Shown here: positions 20,553 to 27,275 of the stretch, one piece after another | Layout of the letters: the number at the start of each line of letters is the position of its first letter | Numbering within the stretch: the first letter of the stretch is position 1 | Source of the DNA: an uncultured Eubacteriales bacterium | Lineage (GTDB): Bacteria; Bacillota; Clostridia; Lachnospirales; Lachnospiraceae | Direction of reading: 5' to 3' | Length of the DNA stretch: 64,000 nt | Assembly: GCA_949283695.1 (NCBI GenBank) | Contig: CASDTX010000029.1 | Span: forward strand, 1-64,000 | Notes under the pieces: model-generated | What the model was told of the DNA's origin: nothing | The model's input: the letters and a program-made list of their open reading frames with translations, nothing else | Databases searched by the model: none | Made by a program: the position numbers and the translations under genes

Positions 20553-22340
20553 TTACTTCTTTTGACTTTCAATCTGTTCTGCCAGATCGTTTAAATAGAC
20601 CCACCGCTCGGTCTTCTCATCCAGCTCCCTCTGCGTCTGTTCCTGCTCGCTGAGCAGCTCTCTGAGCTTTACCGAATTGGTGGCATTTGCCGCCATCTGC
20701 CGGTCAATTGACTCCAGTTTCTCCTCCAGCGCGGCGATGTCGTCGTCAATGGTCTCATATTCCCTCTGCTCATTGTAGGAGAACTTCAGTTTCTTCGGCT
20801 GTCCTTTCTTCCAGCTGGCAGCCGATTCTTTGCTGCTTCTTTCTGCCCGTTCCTGGATCTGAGGCGTCTTCCGAAGGGTCTTCGCTTCCAGATAATCCGT
20901 ATATCCGCCCTCGTACTGGGTCACATGGCCCTCACCGTCCAGCTCCAGAATCCGGTCCGCCACATTATCAAGGAAGTACCGGTCATGAGAAACCGTAATC
21001 ACGATTCCGGAGAAACGGTTCAGATAATCTTCCAGTATAGTCAGTGTTGGAATATCCAGATCATTTCCCGCCTCGTCGAAGAGCAGGACGTTCGCATTCT
21101 GTGCAAGCACGCCCAGAAGATAGAGCCTGCGCTTCTCTCCTCCGGAGAGCTTTCCCACCGGCGCATACTGCATATCCGGGGTGAAGAGGAACCGTTCCAG
21201 CAGCGCAGAGGCGCTGATCTTACCGTCCCTTGTTGTAATATATTCCGCGATATCCTTCACGTAATCAATCACCCGCTGGGAATCATCCATCCCTTTCTCT
21301 TCCTGGGCGAAATATCCGATACGGATGGTCTCTCCGATCTCAATCTTCCCGGAGTCCGGCTTCTCAATCCCTGCCAGCATCTTCATCAGCGTGGTTTTCC
21401 CGCACCCGTTAGGTCCGATGATCCCCAGCCGCTGATTCTTCAGGACGGTATAGCTGTAGTCTTCCAGGATCTTCTTCTCCCCATAGCTCTTGCTGACATG
21501 GTGAAGTTCGATCGTCTTCTTCCCCATCCGTGTCTCTGCAGAATCCAGTTCCACTGTCTGATCCGCCTGCGGGGCTTTCCCGCTTTTCAGCGCTTCCAGC
21601 CGCATCAGCCTGGCTTTCTGCTTCGTGGATCTCGCCCGGCATCCCCGCTTCGCCCACTCCAGTTCCATGCGCAGTACGCTCTGGCGCTTCCGCTCTGAGG
21701 CCAGCTCCATCTCCTCCCGGGCGGCCTTCAGCTCCAGGAATCCCGAATAGTCTGCGTCATACCCGTACATTTTCCCATGGCTGATCTCCAGGATCCGGTT
21801 CGTCACCCGGTCCAGGAAATAGCGGTCGTGAGTTACGATCAGCACCGTTCCCCGGCAGCTTCGCAGGTATTCCTCCAGCCAGCGGATCATCGCCCCGTCC
21901 AGGTGGTTGGTCGGCTCATCCAGCAGCAGGACATCGAAGTCCTCCGCCAGCGTCTTGGCCAGAACCATCCGTCTCTTCTGGCCCCCGGACAGGGTCTCGA
22001 TCTTCTGATCAAAATCTGTAATTCCCAGCTCCATCAGATTGCTCTCCACCTTCCAGTCCTCTGCCTCGCCGGATCCGAATGCATAGGACCGGATATCGCA
22101 GTCTTCAGGAAATACCGGATTCTGCCGCACAAATGCGATTTTCAGACCGTTCTGCTTCACGATCTGCCCCGCGTCAGGGGTCTCCTCGCCTGCTGTCATC
22201 CGCAGGAGGGTCGACTTCCCCATGCCGTTCATCCCCACGATCCCGATCTTATCCCCCTGCTGAACACCGAAAGAAGCGTCGTCATAGATCACTTTCTCTC
22301 CATAGATCTTGCTGATGTGTTCCATATTAATAATGTTCAT
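20553..22340 (-). CDS. ABC-F ATPase, Uup/YfmR-like
   Basis: A soluble protein with two ABC domains and no membrane segments. First cassette: IVGMNGMGKSTLL, LSGGQKRRMVLAKTL, LLLDEPTNHLDG. Second: IIGPNGCGKTTLMKML, LSGGEKRRLYLL, and a Walker B that reads VLLFDEAGNDLD, where Glu-Pro-Thr is normal. A C-terminal coiled coil (roughly residues 510-595) is the Uup hallmark; such proteins act on the ribosome. About 595 residues from the ATG at 22340, which has GGAG five bases ahead. The frame runs 84 codons further upstream through a 30-bp hairpin, and I reject that extension. It ends 100 bp before ilvN. A resistance role is possible for ABC-F proteins in general but not indicated. Confidence 0.88.
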   Translation of the reverse strand: MNIINMEHISKIYGEKVIYDDASFGVQQGDKIGIVGMNGMGKSTLLRMTAGEETPDAGQIVKQNGLKIAFVRQNPVFPEDCDIRSYAFGSGEAEDWKVESNLMELGITDFDQKIETLSGGQKRRMVLAKTLAEDFDVLLLDEPTNHLDGAMIRWLEEYLRSCRGTVLIVTHDRYFLDRVTNRILEISHGKMYGYDADYSGFLELKAAREEMELASERKRQSVLRMELEWAKRGCRARSTKQKARLMRLEALKSGKAPQADQTVELDSAETRMGKKTIELHHVSKSYGEKKILEDYSYTVLKNQRLGIIGPNGCGKTTLMKMLAGIEKPDSGKIEIGETIRIGYFAQEEKGMDDSQRVIDYVKDIAEYITTRDGKISASALLERFLFTPDMQYAPVGKLSGGEKRRLYLLGVLAQNANVLLFDEAGNDLDIPTLTILEDYLNRFSGIVITVSHDRYFLDNVADRILELDGEGHVTQYEGGYTDYLEAKTLRKTPQIQERAERSSKESAASWKKGQPKKLKFSYNEQREYETIDDDIAALEEKLESIDRQMAANATNSVKLRELLSEQEQTQRELDEKTERWVYLNDLAEQIESQKK

Positions 22341-22400: not shown

Positions 22401-22475
22401 AACTCCCGGCGTACTCTTCAAAACGATTCCTTCTTCACTGATACAGGAATCATTTTGAAGAGTACGCCGGGAGTT
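22401..22475 (-). promoter_or_regulatory. Long hairpin upstream of the ABC-F gene
   Basis: Two 30-nt arms (22401-22430 and 22446-22475) are complementary at 29 positions, the remaining one being a G-T type pair, around a 15-nt loop. It lies 61 bp before the ABC-F start and about 50 bp after the permease stop. No T-run follows on either strand. It may be an attenuator, an RNA stabiliser or a mobile palindrome. Confidence 0.7.
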
Positions 22476-22525: not shown

Positions 22526-23146
22526 TCACCGCCTCCTTCGGAAGAGCAGGATCCCCCATGCCATGCACAGAATCCCTGCACCCAGGATCCAATATTTCGT
22601 CTCATAATCAATGAGCATCCCAAAGGGATACAGCTTCTTCAGATACCGGTACCCGGCGCTGATCCCCGCCACATAATACCCCAGGGAGATCATATATCCT
22701 GCGATGAGATTGTCCGTCACTGCATAGGCCAGGATCCCCAGACCACCGAAGGCAATGATTTCGGCCATGGTTCCGAAAAAGTATTTCCCCGGTTCAATCT
22801 CACAGTCTCCTGCCGCCAGTACCGCGATACTGCCGGCGGTCAGAAGTGCAGAGACCGTCAGACTGATCACTGTCCTGGTCAGGTAAACCCCGGTCATCTT
22901 CGTGTATCTCACCTTTACAACATCCCACAGATCCCGGTCCTGCTCGGGCAGAAATACGGGAACGAAAAGGATGATCCCGATCAGCGCCACATACGTCTCC
23001 AGCACCTTGGTACTCTGGGCCGCATCCAGATTCTTCACCCCCAGCACCAGGGGGGATGCGGCCAGCAGAAGCACGCAGATCAGAACATGCTGCCAGGCAT
23101 TATGCCGCAGCTGTACTTTTGTGATTTCCCAATATTTTGCCGCCAC
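22526..23146 (-). CDS. ABC-type membrane protein, small permease-like subunit
   Basis: A 206-residue hydrophobic protein with about six membrane segments, beginning EITKVQLRHNAWQHVLICVLLL and ending ILGAGILCMAWGILLFRRRR. I recognise no specific family, but its size, hydropathy and position behind an ABC permease and ATPase suggest a second membrane subunit of the same exporter. The start is a GTG at 23146, overlapping the preceding permease gene by 47 bp; GGGG lies about 11 bases ahead. Translational coupling is likely. Confidence 0.7.
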   Translation of the reverse strand: MAAKYWEITKVQLRHNAWQHVLICVLLLAASPLVLGVKNLDAAQSTKVLETYVALIGIILFVPVFLPEQDRDLWDVVKVRYTKMTGVYLTRTVISLTVSALLTAGSIAVLAAGDCEIEPGKYFFGTMAEIIAFGGLGILAYAVTDNLIAGYMISLGYYVAGISAGYRYLKKLYPFGMLIDYETKYWILGAGILCMAWGILLFRRRR

Positions 23147-24338
23147 GTTTTAAATGCCCCTTTCTCTTTCTTTCATAAATCAGAATCACCAGCACCAGAA
23201 CCGCCAGTGACAATCCTGCGTAGAATCCCCGGTTTGCAGCCAGCTGCCCGAAGCCTTCCGCGAACCCGGCATAGTTCATCTCTGTATTGTGCCGGGGCAC
23301 CAGATTCCATCCATACATACCGCCGCCCAAGCCGGTGACACCGCCCATCAGGCCGGCAAACCACCAGACCGTCTGGACAAGCACTGCCAGCGCGGTTTCC
23401 GTCAGCTCTGTACACAGCATTCCCACAGATACCACTGCCATCACCGTCGGCATCAGCCATCCCAGATCGTATTTCAGCCACGCCAGATAGTCCGGACGCA
23501 CTGCCAGGCCTGACCGGATACACTCCGCTGTCGGCAGCAGCGACAAGAGCAGGATCGGCAGCATATGCATACACACAAGCGCCAGGTACCGGCTTCCCAT
23601 GACAACAGCGGAGGGCGCCTGCCTCACGAAGACCAGCTCCTGCATCCGGGCCCGCTTATCCCGCAGCATCCGGGTCGCTGTCACGAAGACCGGAAGAATG
23701 CCGGCCAGGATCCCCATATAATCACAGAACAGTCTTGCATATCCGCCGGTAAGTCCGTCCTTCTCGATCAGATCCTGATAATTCTTCACCGCCCCCTCGT
23801 AGTCCACCGGGATCTTCACCTGAGCCCACAGCCGCTCTTCTGTGTAGAAAGATCCCGGTCCCAGGATCTTGGCCACCTGGGTCATATCTTCCAGAAATTC
23901 TTCGTATTTAAGCCCTTTCCGGATACGTACCCGATATGGTTCTGTCTGAATATCGTGTTCCTCATAGTAGGCGCCGATCTCCGCCTCGATCTCTTCCGGC
24001 CGAAGTCCGGTCAGATCATAGATCATATCTGCGATCTTCTCTTTCTCTTCACTGCTTAAGGAGACATTCTTCGCGTATCCCACCGGGTAAGTTACGAAAT
24101 TGTCATAATAATAATCCCAGACAAGCTCTCCCGTGCCAGACTCCATCACGTCTTCTTCCGTAATGTCCGCGCTGTACCCGTACTGAGAATAGTTCTCCTG
24201 TCCTTCTTCCGGGGGAGTCAGGATCTTCTGACCGCCCAGCTGACTCTGAAAGAAGAGGACCAGGCATCCGATGTAGAGCCAATAGATCAGACTTTTTGCC
24301 GTCTGGGAACATTCCTTTCGAAAGAGGCTGATCATCAT
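23100..24338 (-). CDS. ABC-2 type permease with large extracellular domain
   Basis: A 412-residue membrane protein. An N-terminal membrane helix (SLIYWLYIGCLVLFFQSQLGG) is followed by roughly 165 polar residues, probably outside the cell, containing the acidic EEDVMESGTGELVWDYYYDNF, and then about five to six further helices to the C-terminus. This is the ABC-2 export permease pattern. Its start ATG overlaps the stop of the ATPase gene by four bases (ATGA), so they form one system. Cargo unknown; peptide or lipid-type envelope stress exporters have this arrangement beside a two-component pair. Confidence 0.78.
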   Translation of the reverse strand: MMISLFRKECSQTAKSLIYWLYIGCLVLFFQSQLGGQKILTPPEEGQENYSQYGYSADITEEDVMESGTGELVWDYYYDNFVTYPVGYAKNVSLSSEEKEKIADMIYDLTGLRPEEIEAEIGAYYEEHDIQTEPYRVRIRKGLKYEEFLEDMTQVAKILGPGSFYTEERLWAQVKIPVDYEGAVKNYQDLIEKDGLTGGYARLFCDYMGILAGILPVFVTATRMLRDKRARMQELVFVRQAPSAVVMGSRYLALVCMHMLPILLLSLLPTAECIRSGLAVRPDYLAWLKYDLGWLMPTVMAVVSVGMLCTELTETALAVLVQTVWWFAGLMGGVTGLGGGMYGWNLVPRHNTEMNYAGFAEGFGQLAANRGFYAGLSLAVLVLVILIYERKRKGHLKRGGKILGNHKSTAAA

Positions 24339-25213
24339 AAGGCATCCCCCTTCCTCTGCATCAGATACATATAGGCGTCTTCCACCCCCGCCTCACACAG
24401 CTGCGCGCCGGAGAACGGCTGCCGGTCTGTGAGGAACCGCACCATAACATTATTTCCCAGCGTGATCATACTGGTCACCAGATAGGACGCCCGGATCTTC
24501 TCCAGCTGTTTCCTGCTGATCTCCGCCCGGTACACCCTTCCATCCACAAGGGAAATCAGCTCTTCCACGGTTCCGCGAAAGAGGATTCTGCCTTCGTCCA
24601 TGATCCCGATCTCCTCGCAGGCCGCTTCCACATCACCCACGATATGGGTGGAGAGGATCACGATCCGCTCCTCCGCGATCTCGCAGAGCAGATTCCGGAA
24701 GCGCACCCGCTCCTCCGGATCCAGACCGGCCGTCGGCTCATCCACGATCAGGACTTTCGGATCATGCAGGATGGCCTGTGCGATCCCCAGCCTCCGCTTC
24801 ATCCCGCCCGAGAGCGCCCGCACTTTGGTCCGCCCGTTCTCACTTAAGTTCACTCGTTCCAGAAGCACCGGGATCCGCTGCTTTCGCTGTGCCCTTGTAA
24901 GTCCGGAGAGCACCCCCAGATAATCCATGGCCTCGTACACGGTCATATTCGGATACATGGAAAATTCCTGGGGAAGATATCCCGTGATCTTGCGTATCTC
25001 AGAAGCACGACTGACCGGAATGCCGCATACGGTCACCCTTCCGCTGTCTTTCTCCAGGAGGGACGCCAGCACTTTCATCAGCGTTGTCTTCCCCGCCCCG
25101 TTTCTTCCCAGAAGCCCGAACATTCCTTCGGTAATCTTCAGATCGACTCCCCGCAGCGCCTGTTTCTTTCCATAGGATTTGTTCAGATTTTGAATTACAA
25201 TCTCCGTCTTCAT
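24335..25213 (-). CDS. ABC transporter ATP-binding protein
   Basis: A single-cassette ATPase of about 292 residues. Walker A GLLGRNGAGKTTLMKVL, signature LSGGMKRRLGIAQAIL, Walker B VLIVDEPTAGLDP and the H-loop STHIVGDVE are intact. The C-terminal 80 residues are a variable regulatory tail. Start: ATG at 25213 with AAAGGG eight bases upstream; a GTG three codons earlier would overlap that SD. It heads an ATPase-permease-permease unit behind a promoter (25281-25312) that carries the same tandem TAGGA box as the response-regulator promoter, so control by the adjacent two-component system is inferred. Confidence 0.92.
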   Translation of the reverse strand: MKTEIVIQNLNKSYGKKQALRGVDLKITEGMFGLLGRNGAGKTTLMKVLASLLEKDSGRVTVCGIPVSRASEIRKITGYLPQEFSMYPNMTVYEAMDYLGVLSGLTRAQRKQRIPVLLERVNLSENGRTKVRALSGGMKRRLGIAQAILHDPKVLIVDEPTAGLDPEERVRFRNLLCEIAEERIVILSTHIVGDVEAACEEIGIMDEGRILFRGTVEELISLVDGRVYRAEISRKQLEKIRASYLVTSMITLGNNVMVRFLTDRQPFSGAQLCEAGVEDAYMYLMQRKGDAL

Positions 25214-25280
25214 TGATGTCACCCTTTCTGTGCATTCATTTCAAACATCCCGGTTTCTTCCGTTCTGTTCTCATGAACCT

Positions 25281-25312
25281 ACTATACCGTCGAAAATCCT
25301 ATTTTTCTCCTA
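25281..25312 (-). promoter_or_regulatory. ABC operon promoter with tandem TAGGA box
   Basis: On the minus strand two TAGGA half-sites (25308-25312 and 25297-25301) are 11 bp apart and end exactly 10 bp before a -10 TATAGT (25281-25286). The usual -35 position has no match and falls between the half-sites, as at activator-dependent promoters of OmpR-family regulators. The box begins a few bases past the kinase stop codon. Confidence 0.7.
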
Positions 25313-25319
25313 CAAAGAT

Positions 25320-26552
25320 TTAAGACTTTCTGCAGAAAAAGGATACACTTACAAAAGCTCCTCCCTCTACACTGTTGGCCAGATTCAGGCAGCCGCCGTG
25401 CTTCTCGGCGAGCACGCGGCAGATATGAAGTCCGATCCCGAAATGCTCCTGTACTCCGCCGGTCTCTTCCGCCCGCACCGCCGGATCCCTCCCCCGGAAA
25501 TACGGTTCTGCGGCGGATGCAAGCCCCTCTGTGTCGAATCCCGGGCCGTCGTCCCGCACATAGAGGAACAGCCGGTCCTGCTCATAATCCAGCAGGATCT
25601 CCACCTCCTTTCCGGCAAAGCGCAGGGCATTCGAAAGCAGGTTTTCCAGCACTTCCAGAAAGAGGGATTCGTCCAGCCAGACAGAGGCATCGCTTCCGCC
25701 GGCGGCTGTCAGAATCCGGATATCTCCGACCAGATTCAGGGGTTCTGTAATCTCCTGGATCAGGGAATACAGATGGGCCTTGGTGGTCTCTGTCCGGGTG
25801 ATTTCAAGCTCTTCAAAACTGCGGATCTGCCGCATGGTCCTCGTATAATCCTCCAGACGCTTCAGCTGCTGGGACATCAATTTCAGAGTCGAAGTCAGTT
25901 TCTCCTCACTCACCTTCCCCTCTGGGGCGTACCGGTACAGGAGTTCAGAATATCCCCGCAGCACAGTCAGCGGGGTCCGCATATCATGAGCAAAGACTGC
26001 GTTAATCTCCTTCTGATCCTCGATCTTACGCCAGAGAGCTTCCCGGTCAGCCACCACTTCCCGGCGCATCTGCTCAAAGGTTCTGCACAGCTGTCCCATC
26101 TCATCCTTGCTGTCATAGGAAACTGTAAAATCCAGATTGTGCCGGCCCATCTCCTCCGCCCCTTTCCGCAGGATCTCAAACGGCCGGCGCATCCGGTTCC
26201 GGTAGAACAGGACCGCCGCCCCTGCCGATCCCGCCCCCACGCAGATCCAGGGTGAGACCGTAAAAATCAGCTGAAGAGCCGCCATTTCCGACCGTTCTTT
26301 CTCCGGCAGAAGATACACGATCTCCTCAATGCTGTTAAGACTTCCGACAGTTTTGATCGAATCCATTGCCCCATAGATTCCATAGGACTGAATCAGCTCA
26401 TTGTATCTGACTGTACAGTACTGCCGAATCGTCCATGTACACACAAACGCACCGCAAAAAGCCAGCAGCAAGTATGCCGCCAGCGCCCATTTTACAGAGA
26501 GATTCCGGATCCATTTCCGGAACTGTCCTATCTTCTCATCGATCCAGTCCAC
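25320..26552 (-). CDS. Sensor histidine kinase
   Basis: A membrane sensor of about 410 residues. Two membrane helices (WALAAYLLLAFCGAFVCTW and PWICVGAGSAGAAVLFY) flank an extracellular loop of about 85 residues. A HAMP-like linker precedes the H-box FAHDMRTPLTVLRGYSELL with the phospho-accepting His. The ATPase domain has NLLSNALRF (N box), RDDGPGFD (G1) and FGIGLHICRVLAEKHGG (G2). Start: GTG at 26552 with GGAGTGGGG just ahead; another GTG six codons upstream is possible. It overlaps the regulator gene by about 25 bp. The signal is unknown; the ABC genes downstream point to envelope or antimicrobial stress. Confidence 0.92.
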   Translation of the reverse strand: MDWIDEKIGQFRKWIRNLSVKWALAAYLLLAFCGAFVCTWTIRQYCTVRYNELIQSYGIYGAMDSIKTVGSLNSIEEIVYLLPEKERSEMAALQLIFTVSPWICVGAGSAGAAVLFYRNRMRRPFEILRKGAEEMGRHNLDFTVSYDSKDEMGQLCRTFEQMRREVVADREALWRKIEDQKEINAVFAHDMRTPLTVLRGYSELLYRYAPEGKVSEEKLTSTLKLMSQQLKRLEDYTRTMRQIRSFEELEITRTETTKAHLYSLIQEITEPLNLVGDIRILTAAGGSDASVWLDESLFLEVLENLLSNALRFAGKEVEILLDYEQDRLFLYVRDDGPGFDTEGLASAAEPYFRGRDPAVRAEETGGVQEHFGIGLHICRVLAEKHGGCLNLANSVEGGAFVSVSFFCRKS

Positions 26553-27214
26553 TGATACCCCACTCCCCACACGGTGCGGATCACTTCCTGATCCGTATAT
26601 TCTGCGATCTTTCCCCGGATCCTCCGCACATGCTCGGCCACAATCGTGCTGTCGCCGTCTGCGTCATATCCCCGCACCTTTTCATAGATTCTTTCTTTGC
26701 TGAATACCTGCCCCGGATGAAGGGAAAGAAACGCAAGGATATCGTATTCTGTTCTCGTCAGATCAATCCGGTGAGAGCCGCAGAGGATACTGCGCTCCTG
26801 ATAACAGATCGTCAGATCGCCTTCTTTCTTGACCGGGCCTGTATGCCGCCCCCGCGCCTCCCTGCGGAAATGGGCCATCACCCTTGCGCCCAGTTCTTCC
26901 ACACTGAACGGTTTCGTGATGTAGTCGTCTCCGCCCATCATCAGTCCGGTGATCCGGTCCTGTTCCTCCACACGCGCAGACAGAAAGAGGATCGGACACC
27001 CCACCTTCTCCCGGATCTTCGCACACACGCTCAGCCCGTCCATGTCCGGCATATTGATATCCAGCAGGATCATATCCGGATCACCGGATATCTTCTCCAG
27101 CGCCTCCCGGCCCCCGCCGGCTGTCAGCACTTCATAGCCCTGCAGCTCCAGATAATCTTTCAGGAGAAGGACAATGCCCTCCTCGTCGTCCACAACCAGA
27201 ATCCGCTGTCCCAT
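26528..27214 (-). CDS. OmpR-family response regulator
   Basis: 228 residues. The receiver domain has the acidic pocket VDDEEG, phospho-acceptor Asp in MILLDINMPDMDG (about residue 52), and the conserved KPFSVEELGARV lysine. The C-terminal winged helix shows LTRTEYDILAFLSLHPGQVFSKERIYEKV and VRRIRGKI, with VWGVGYQW at the end. The ATG at 27214 follows AAAGGAGG. Its own promoter (27244-27275) carries the tandem TAGGA box that also precedes the ABC genes, implying autoregulation. Confidence 0.95.
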   Translation of the reverse strand: MGQRILVVDDEEGIVLLLKDYLELQGYEVLTAGGGREALEKISGDPDMILLDINMPDMDGLSVCAKIREKVGCPILFLSARVEEQDRITGLMMGGDDYITKPFSVEELGARVMAHFRREARGRHTGPVKKEGDLTICYQERSILCGSHRIDLTRTEYDILAFLSLHPGQVFSKERIYEKVRGYDADGDSTIVAEHVRRIRGKIAEYTDQEVIRTVWGVGYQWTGSMRR

Positions 27215-27243
27215 CTGTGTGTACCTCCTTTTCCTGAAAGACT

Positions 27244-27275
27244 ATTTTAGCAGGCATTTTCCTATACTTTTCCTA
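27244..27275 (-). promoter_or_regulatory. Response-regulator promoter with tandem TAGGA box
   Basis: TAGGA half-sites at 27271-27275 and 27260-27264 (minus strand) are 11 bp apart and exactly 10 bp before -10 TAAAAT (27244-27249). The flanking TTTG before the first half-site is also shared with the ABC promoter. No -35 hexamer match is visible. Confidence 0.7.

Follow-up and report, generated by a model that had tools for sequence, protein, structure and literature searches.

A putative tandem TAGGA operator at the response regulator and ABC transporter promoters of a two-component cassette in gut Clostridia

Two neighbouring promoters in the window, by which we mean the whole 64-kb stretch of DNA analyzed here, carry the same tandem TAGGA box, and the question is which protein this box serves and how. 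The promoters belong to a cassette of 5 genes on the minus strand, which encode a response regulator (RR), an overlapping histidine kinase (HK), an ABC transporter ATPase, and 2 permeases, here called P1 and P2. The RR (26528..27214, 228 amino acids) matched the Pfam families Response_reg and Trans_reg_C above cut-off and contained residues D9, D10, D52, and K101, and the combination of a receiver domain with a phospho-acceptor aspartate and a Trans_reg_C winged helix places it in the OmpR/PhoB family. The sensor HK (25320..26570, 416 amino acids) contained HAMP, HisKA, and HATPase_c domains, with the H-box at residue 195, and a single clear hydrophobic segment in the hydropathy profile. The ATPase (24335..25222, 295 amino acids) matched Pfam ABC_tran and contained the Walker A, LSGG, and Walker B motifs; its open reading frame starts with a GTG codon at position 25222, but the ATG codon at position 25213 appears to have the more suitable position relative to a ribosome-binding site.

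The P1 protein (23100..24338, minus strand, 412 amino acids) is probably an ABC-2 type permease, as suggested by its hydropathy and by a match to ABC2_membrane_3 that was below cut-off (27.3 vs. 31.6 bits). The first strongly hydrophobic segment did not appear before residue 201, a comparison with solved structures yielded 2 weak, implausible matches and nothing more, and a search for relatives of P1 on plasmids gave none. The P2 protein (22526..23146, minus strand, 206 amino acids) contained 5 hydrophobic segments according to hydropathy, and a relative of it was present in all 80 of the loci found with P1 (the best 80 of 109). Since the ABC promoter directly follows the stop codon of the HK gene, the cassette is probably transcribed as at least 2 units.

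The RR site, located at 27244-27275 on the minus strand, reads TTTG TAGGAAAAGTATAGGA N10 TAAAAT, and the ABC site, located at 25281-25312 on the same strand, reads TTTG TAGGAGAAAAATAGGA N10 TATAGT. The putative operator of the RR promoter spans 27260..27275 (box 1, 27271-27275; box 2, 27260-27264) and is followed after 10 bp by the −10 element TAAAAT of the RR-HK promoter at 27244..27249, while the putative operator of the ABC promoter spans 25297..25312 (box 1, 25308-25312; box 2, 25297-25301) and is followed after the same 10 bp by the −10 element TATAGT at 25281..25286. These spacings are kept in relatives, as is the repeat period of 11, corresponding to about one helical turn in a head-to-tail arrangement. 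Together, the 2 boxes cover about −38 to −22 relative to the estimated start, and a −35-like hexamer 16 to 18 bp from the −10 element was absent at both promoters. The original prediction gave the coordinates and spacings correctly at both promoters but included the preceding TTTG, which we do not consider to be part of the operator: before the RR gene it was not kept in relatives, and before the ABC genes it simply follows the kinase stop codon.

OmpR-family regulators bind direct repeats head-to-tail. The missing −35 hexamer, taken together with the rigid distance to the −10 element, is what one expects of an activator that takes over the −35 contact, and the geometry thereby fits the earlier suggestion of an OmpR-family activator positioned over the missing −35 element. 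We consider it highly probable that the TAGGA-N6-TAGGA pair is the operator of the adjacent RR, which would activate both the RR-HK and the ATPase-permease-permease transcripts. A signal sensed by the adjacent HK would lead to phosphorylation of the RR, and the phosphorylated RR would bind head-to-tail as a dimer, so that each 11-bp repeat would be occupied by one monomer and both monomers would lie on the same face of the DNA. The dimer would occupy the place of the missing −35 element and recruit RNA polymerase to the isolated −10 element, switching on 2 transcripts, RR-HK by positive autoregulation and ATPase-permease-permease for the exporter, which in turn may remove an antimicrobial peptide or an envelope-active antibiotic. 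In this scheme, we infer the RR as the binder, the activation, the dimeric mode of binding, and the antimicrobial export from the sequence features described here.

The bare repeat occurs at chance level. Allowing at most 1 mismatch, TAGGA-N6-TAGGA was observed 3 times in the 64-kb window vs. 2.96 expected, and exact copies were found at 4 sites in the 2.9-Mb genome vs. about 4.9 expected from the base composition of the window; the reversed control, with 13 matches in the genome, was commoner than the real repeat. When followed by N10-TANNNT, the repeat had 2 matches in the 2.9-Mb genome, with 0.066 expected and none for the reversed control, and both were the RR and ABC promoters of the cassette. 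The whole-genome scan that had been proposed as a check returned exactly these 2 sites, which qualifies the predicted regulon in that the exact pattern marks 2 promoters only in this genome. A search with the 32-mer pattern across 299 genomes of the family, this one included, gave 8 matches in 7 genomes, and only this genome had 2; the reversed pattern gave about 73 matches, far above the 8 real ones, so that this search on its own is no proof of enrichment. For the 6 single matches elsewhere, no match to the cassette was found within 1.5 kb on each side, except for one weak match to the ATPase. The case for an operator is therefore one of place and conservation.

To follow the sites among relatives, 99 genomes were searched with P1, of which 58 belong to the same genus, and relatives with 67% to 72% identity were identified in 7 further same-genus genomes; their named records are labelled Mediterraneibacter, with the exception of one labelled Clostridium sp. 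Marseille-P3244. The ABC operator was present in all 8 same-genus genomes with the cassette. Its second box was TAGGA in 8 of 8, while the first box was TAGGA in 3, TAGAA in 4, and TAGGG in 1 genome. The RR operator was present in 6 of 8 (this window, G313, G336, G327, G355, and G312), although the link to the RR gene in G312 is inferred, as the site is located at the end of another contig beside a flippase-like gene. It was absent from G348, where the upstream region has seemingly been deleted, and from G353, where the RR gene follows other sequence. A degenerate pattern, which the RR site of the window itself fails to match at one letter, gave 14 sites in 9 of the 58 same-genus genomes, compared with 4 for the reversed control, and these 9 were the 8 genomes with the cassette and G341. 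The site in G341 was considered as an extra regulon member and rejected, because it lies at the promoter of the regulator in a cassette that is decaying.

It was also noted that several same-genus genomes have a cassette that looks broken, by decay or by assembly error. The regulator in G341 (L137) was internally deleted and the kinase interrupted, and matches to the ATPase and P1 were absent; the ATPase match in G327 (L032) was confined to its start, and the regulator match in G336 (L030) was split. Furthermore, the contig end in G312 (G312:C56, L138) seems to contain 4 TAGG-type boxes in tandem in the promoter beside the flippase-like gene, by a near-duplication of about 20 bases, and this tandem may be an assembly artefact.

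For the more distant comparisons, we used the best 80 of 109 loci from a scan of species genomes with P1. Seven of these were from the same genus, and the others were from Dorea, Extibacter, Blautia, Ruminococcus-like species, other Clostridia, and a few more distant records. A regulator with at least 48% identity was located within 4.5 kb before the ATPase gene in 59 of the 80. The layout was kept across these loci, with a repeat period of 11 and a −10 element that begins 26 bases after box 1, while the letters of the boxes varied: most Lachnospiraceae with a site had TAGAGA or TAGGGA, and Ruminococcus-like species had the TTGATA type. Bases that did not enter the score were also conserved, being A-rich after box 1 and A/T-rich and ATT-like after box 2, and the extended operator is roughly TAGAGAAAATATAGAGAATTT-N5-TATAAT.

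The geometry was examined in 120 upstream regions of 130 nt from loci outside Mediterraneibacter, drawn from the same best 80 of 109. Two copies of the motif T[AT]G[AG] at a period of 11, followed by a −10 element at the fixed distance, were present in 64 of the 120 regions. Other periods from 7 to 16 gave 0 or 1 match at any −10 distance, and period 11 with other −10 distances gave between 0 and 2, the exception being a single offset whose 9 matches are probably overlapping readings of the −10 element. In 200 sets of dinucleotide-shuffled regions, the mean was 0.26 and the maximum was 3.

A promoter was counted as boxed if a site with a score of at least 19 was present within 400 nt upstream, using a score that was designed after inspection of the sequences and counts in which near-duplicate species were kept. 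In the best 80 of 109 loci, 62 of 78 readable ABC promoters reached this score (56 of 72 outside Mediterraneibacter) and 16 fell below it, as compared to 29 of 56 readable RR promoters (25 of 50 outside Mediterraneibacter), with 27 below. Both promoters were readable at 55 of these loci, where both scored in 25, the ABC promoter alone in 24, the RR promoter alone in 3, and neither in 3. The scoring sites in this sample comprised 58 distinct strings for ABC and 27 for RR. The sites, with their exact geometry, are conserved and concentrated at the 2 promoters: 91 matches were found in 51,906 promoter positions vs. 9 in 2,196,254 positions elsewhere in the same loci, a rate that is 428-fold lower outside the promoters. 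This bears out the comparison before orthologues suggested earlier, in that the spaced repeat is conserved at ABC and RR promoters and rare elsewhere. Autoregulation, which was part of the original prediction, fits the RR promoter of this window, which carries the box, but does not extend to about half of the RR promoters of relatives, which are below score. What is kept more constantly among relatives is the control of the pump, and autoregulation is optional there.

One of the 9 off-promoter matches, in L049, was in fact located at the ABC promoter of a cassette with a broken ATPase gene; another, in L087, was located between the HK and ATPase genes, and a third, in L058, about 600 nt before the RR gene. 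A TAGRGA-type pattern had 5 matches in 250 genomes of the family, all of which were located before the RR gene (1) or the ABC genes (4) of the cassette, and the control had none; as the 80 loci already included 3 of the 5 site strings, this result speaks for exclusiveness and is not a new sample. A Subdoligranulum record that was found by similarity to the RR only (55%) had a score of 20 both before the RR gene and before the ATPase gene; its ATPase was 42% identical, and matches to P1 and P2 were absent from the record. In a locus from Clostridioides difficile HC132 (L083), a related ATPase-permease-permease set was identified with 55% identity for the ATPase and 37% for P1, and no match to the RR or HK was found within the 17-kb locus. 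The ATPase gene in this locus is preceded by TAGGA-N6-TAGAA with a score of 16.5, which is under the threshold.

The same geometry bears on the sign of the regulation. The RR, bound over the promoter as a repressor, could block the polymerase until the signal arrives, and the site does overlap the −35 region, as repressor sites can, while autoregulation is compatible with either sign. However, neither promoter has a −35-like hexamer from which unassisted initiation could proceed, and the distance from box to −10 element is rigid over many relatives, as a contact with the polymerase predicts. We therefore regard repression as unlikely and retain activation by the adjacent RR.

Three same-genus sister cassettes (L038, L039, and L040) encode an RR that is 52% to 53% identical, and their best operator score was 15 to 16.5. 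They share another motif, TTGACTTTT, before both the RR and ABC genes (3 of 3 loci, 6 of 6 upstream regions), which is probably a second class of operator. Inspection by eye of the regions before RR revealed TTGGC, TTGTC, or TTGAC 11 bases upstream of TTGAC, with a TATA-like hexamer spaced as in the main operator class, so that the sister operators may have the same 11-bp frame with other letters. Since the sister RR differs and both promoters carry the other motif, both operators change together with the regulator. It was also observed that RR residue 155 was lysine in 15 of 15 rows with TTGA-type boxes and threonine, methionine, or valine in 39 rows with TAG-type boxes; the pattern follows the phylogeny, and we make no claim that this residue determines specificity. 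Box letters and regulator residues both vary along the phylogeny, which makes protein-DNA co-variation inseparable from descent.

These sister cassettes also speak to whether some other DNA-binding protein uses the site while the neighbouring RR acts elsewhere. Such a protein would account for L052, L068, L093, and L098, in each of which the ABC box is good and the locus, with 5 kb or more of sequence upstream, contains no regulator of at least 48% identity, and for the RR promoters without a box, about half of the total. Against it, the site is concentrated at the promoters of the cassette and precedes the RR gene itself in 29 of 56 cases, a regulator with the above identity is located within 4.5 kb before the ATPase gene in 59 loci (both among the best 80 of 109), and the cassettes with a more distant regulator carry a different shared motif. 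We consider this explanation to be very unlikely. A coincidence of 2 A/G-rich spacers, by chance or composition, would be consistent with the chance frequency of the bare repeat in genome and window and with its commoner reversed control, but it is hardly credible given the conservation before orthologues and the fixed geometry.

With the adjacent RR as the probable activator, the extent of the regulon was considered further. The original prediction allowed for an extension to the downstream ABC-F gene, which the features of the intervening region do not favour. This gene probably starts at position 22340, 185 nt beyond P2, and the gap contains a perfect inverted repeat (22401..22475, minus strand) with 23-bp arms at 22401-22423 and 22453-22475 and a 29-base loop, of which no further copies with up to 3 mismatches were found in the genome. 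The gap also contains the strongest promoter-like match of the region, TTGACA-17-CAAAAT, which overlaps the inverted repeat, and no operator box was found before the ABC-F gene. There was no terminator-like match in the gap and no T-run after the inverted repeat, so that read-through into the ABC-F gene is possible; the gene is nevertheless probably outside the regulon.

We are evenly divided over a broader view, that this is a widespread, apparently unnamed family of RR-HK-ATPase-large ABC-2-like permease-small permease cassettes in gut Clostridia, in which a rigid 0/11/26 operator layout carries letters that differ from clade to clade (TAGGA, TAGAGA, and TTGATA, with TTGAC in the sisters) and each regulator-operator pair is insulated from its relatives. 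If so, the combination of a constant frame with clade-specific letters would offer a natural data set on the divergence of specificity in the OmpR family. The findings provide a testable regulon for an uncharacterized two-component system and a pump that occur in many gut Lachnospiraceae and related bacteria, together with a DNA signature that can locate the promoters of the cassette in genomes.

No published description of this operator was evident in the open-licence literature, as judged from titles and the starts of abstracts. Among the closest known parallels, the regulator RR_1586 of Clostridioides difficile was bound in gel shifts to a direct repeat of an 11-nt motif, with sites reported both for its own operon and for genes of ABC transporters (PMC6222199). 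It resembles the system described here in having a receiver and a winged helix, a head-to-tail direct repeat, and both its own operon and ABC genes as targets, but its half-site consensus is DRTTAAGNWWW (PMC6222199), whereas the boxes here are of the TAGGA, TAGAGA, or TTGATA type with a fixed −10 distance. SpaRK, a two-component system with a lantibiotic regulator of the SpaR/NisR type, activates a nearby immunity ABC transporter and does not induce its own promoter, PspaR (PMC8991943), whereas the RR promoter here carries a box.

The CprABC type of lantibiotic-resistance cassette likewise combines one ATPase and 2 permeases with a two-component system, as found here, but the Cpr permeases consist of 238 and 252 amino acids with 6 predicted helices each, and cprR is located apart from its operon (PMC5786555). 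The permeases of the cassette have 412 and 206 amino acids rather than about 240 each and the RR gene is inside the cassette; on permease size and on helices as judged from hydropathy, we did not assign it to the CprABC type. Nor was it assigned to the BceAB type, which has a single ten-helix permease with an extracellular domain of 200 to 250 amino acids between helices VII and VIII (PMC5786555), since there are 2 permeases here and in P1 it is the N-terminal half that contains the long non-hydrophobic stretch.

The cassette probably serves in the detoxification of peptides or envelope-active antibiotics, and envelope stress is a plausible theme of the regulon. Our best guess for the signal sensed by the HK is a lantibiotic-like or other envelope-active compound, by analogy with the Cpr-like gene set and with a regulator of about 49% identity in a lantibiotic cluster of the gallidermin/nisin family. 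If the inducer is a lantibiotic or a host peptide, the system would be relevant to the resistance of gut commensals against antimicrobial peptides. No genes for lanthipeptide biosynthesis were identified among the 7 window proteins scanned against Pfam and NCBIfam. The regulator in question was the best RR match in an annotated plasmid record and is encoded on Priestia megaterium pBM700 (L146/L148). Within the surrounding 12.7 kb, in which the precursor-peptide promoters were viewed by eye, no site reached a score of 19 and 3 sites had scores of 18 to 18.5. The pBM700 cluster was also found to contain 2 genes for one precursor peptide.
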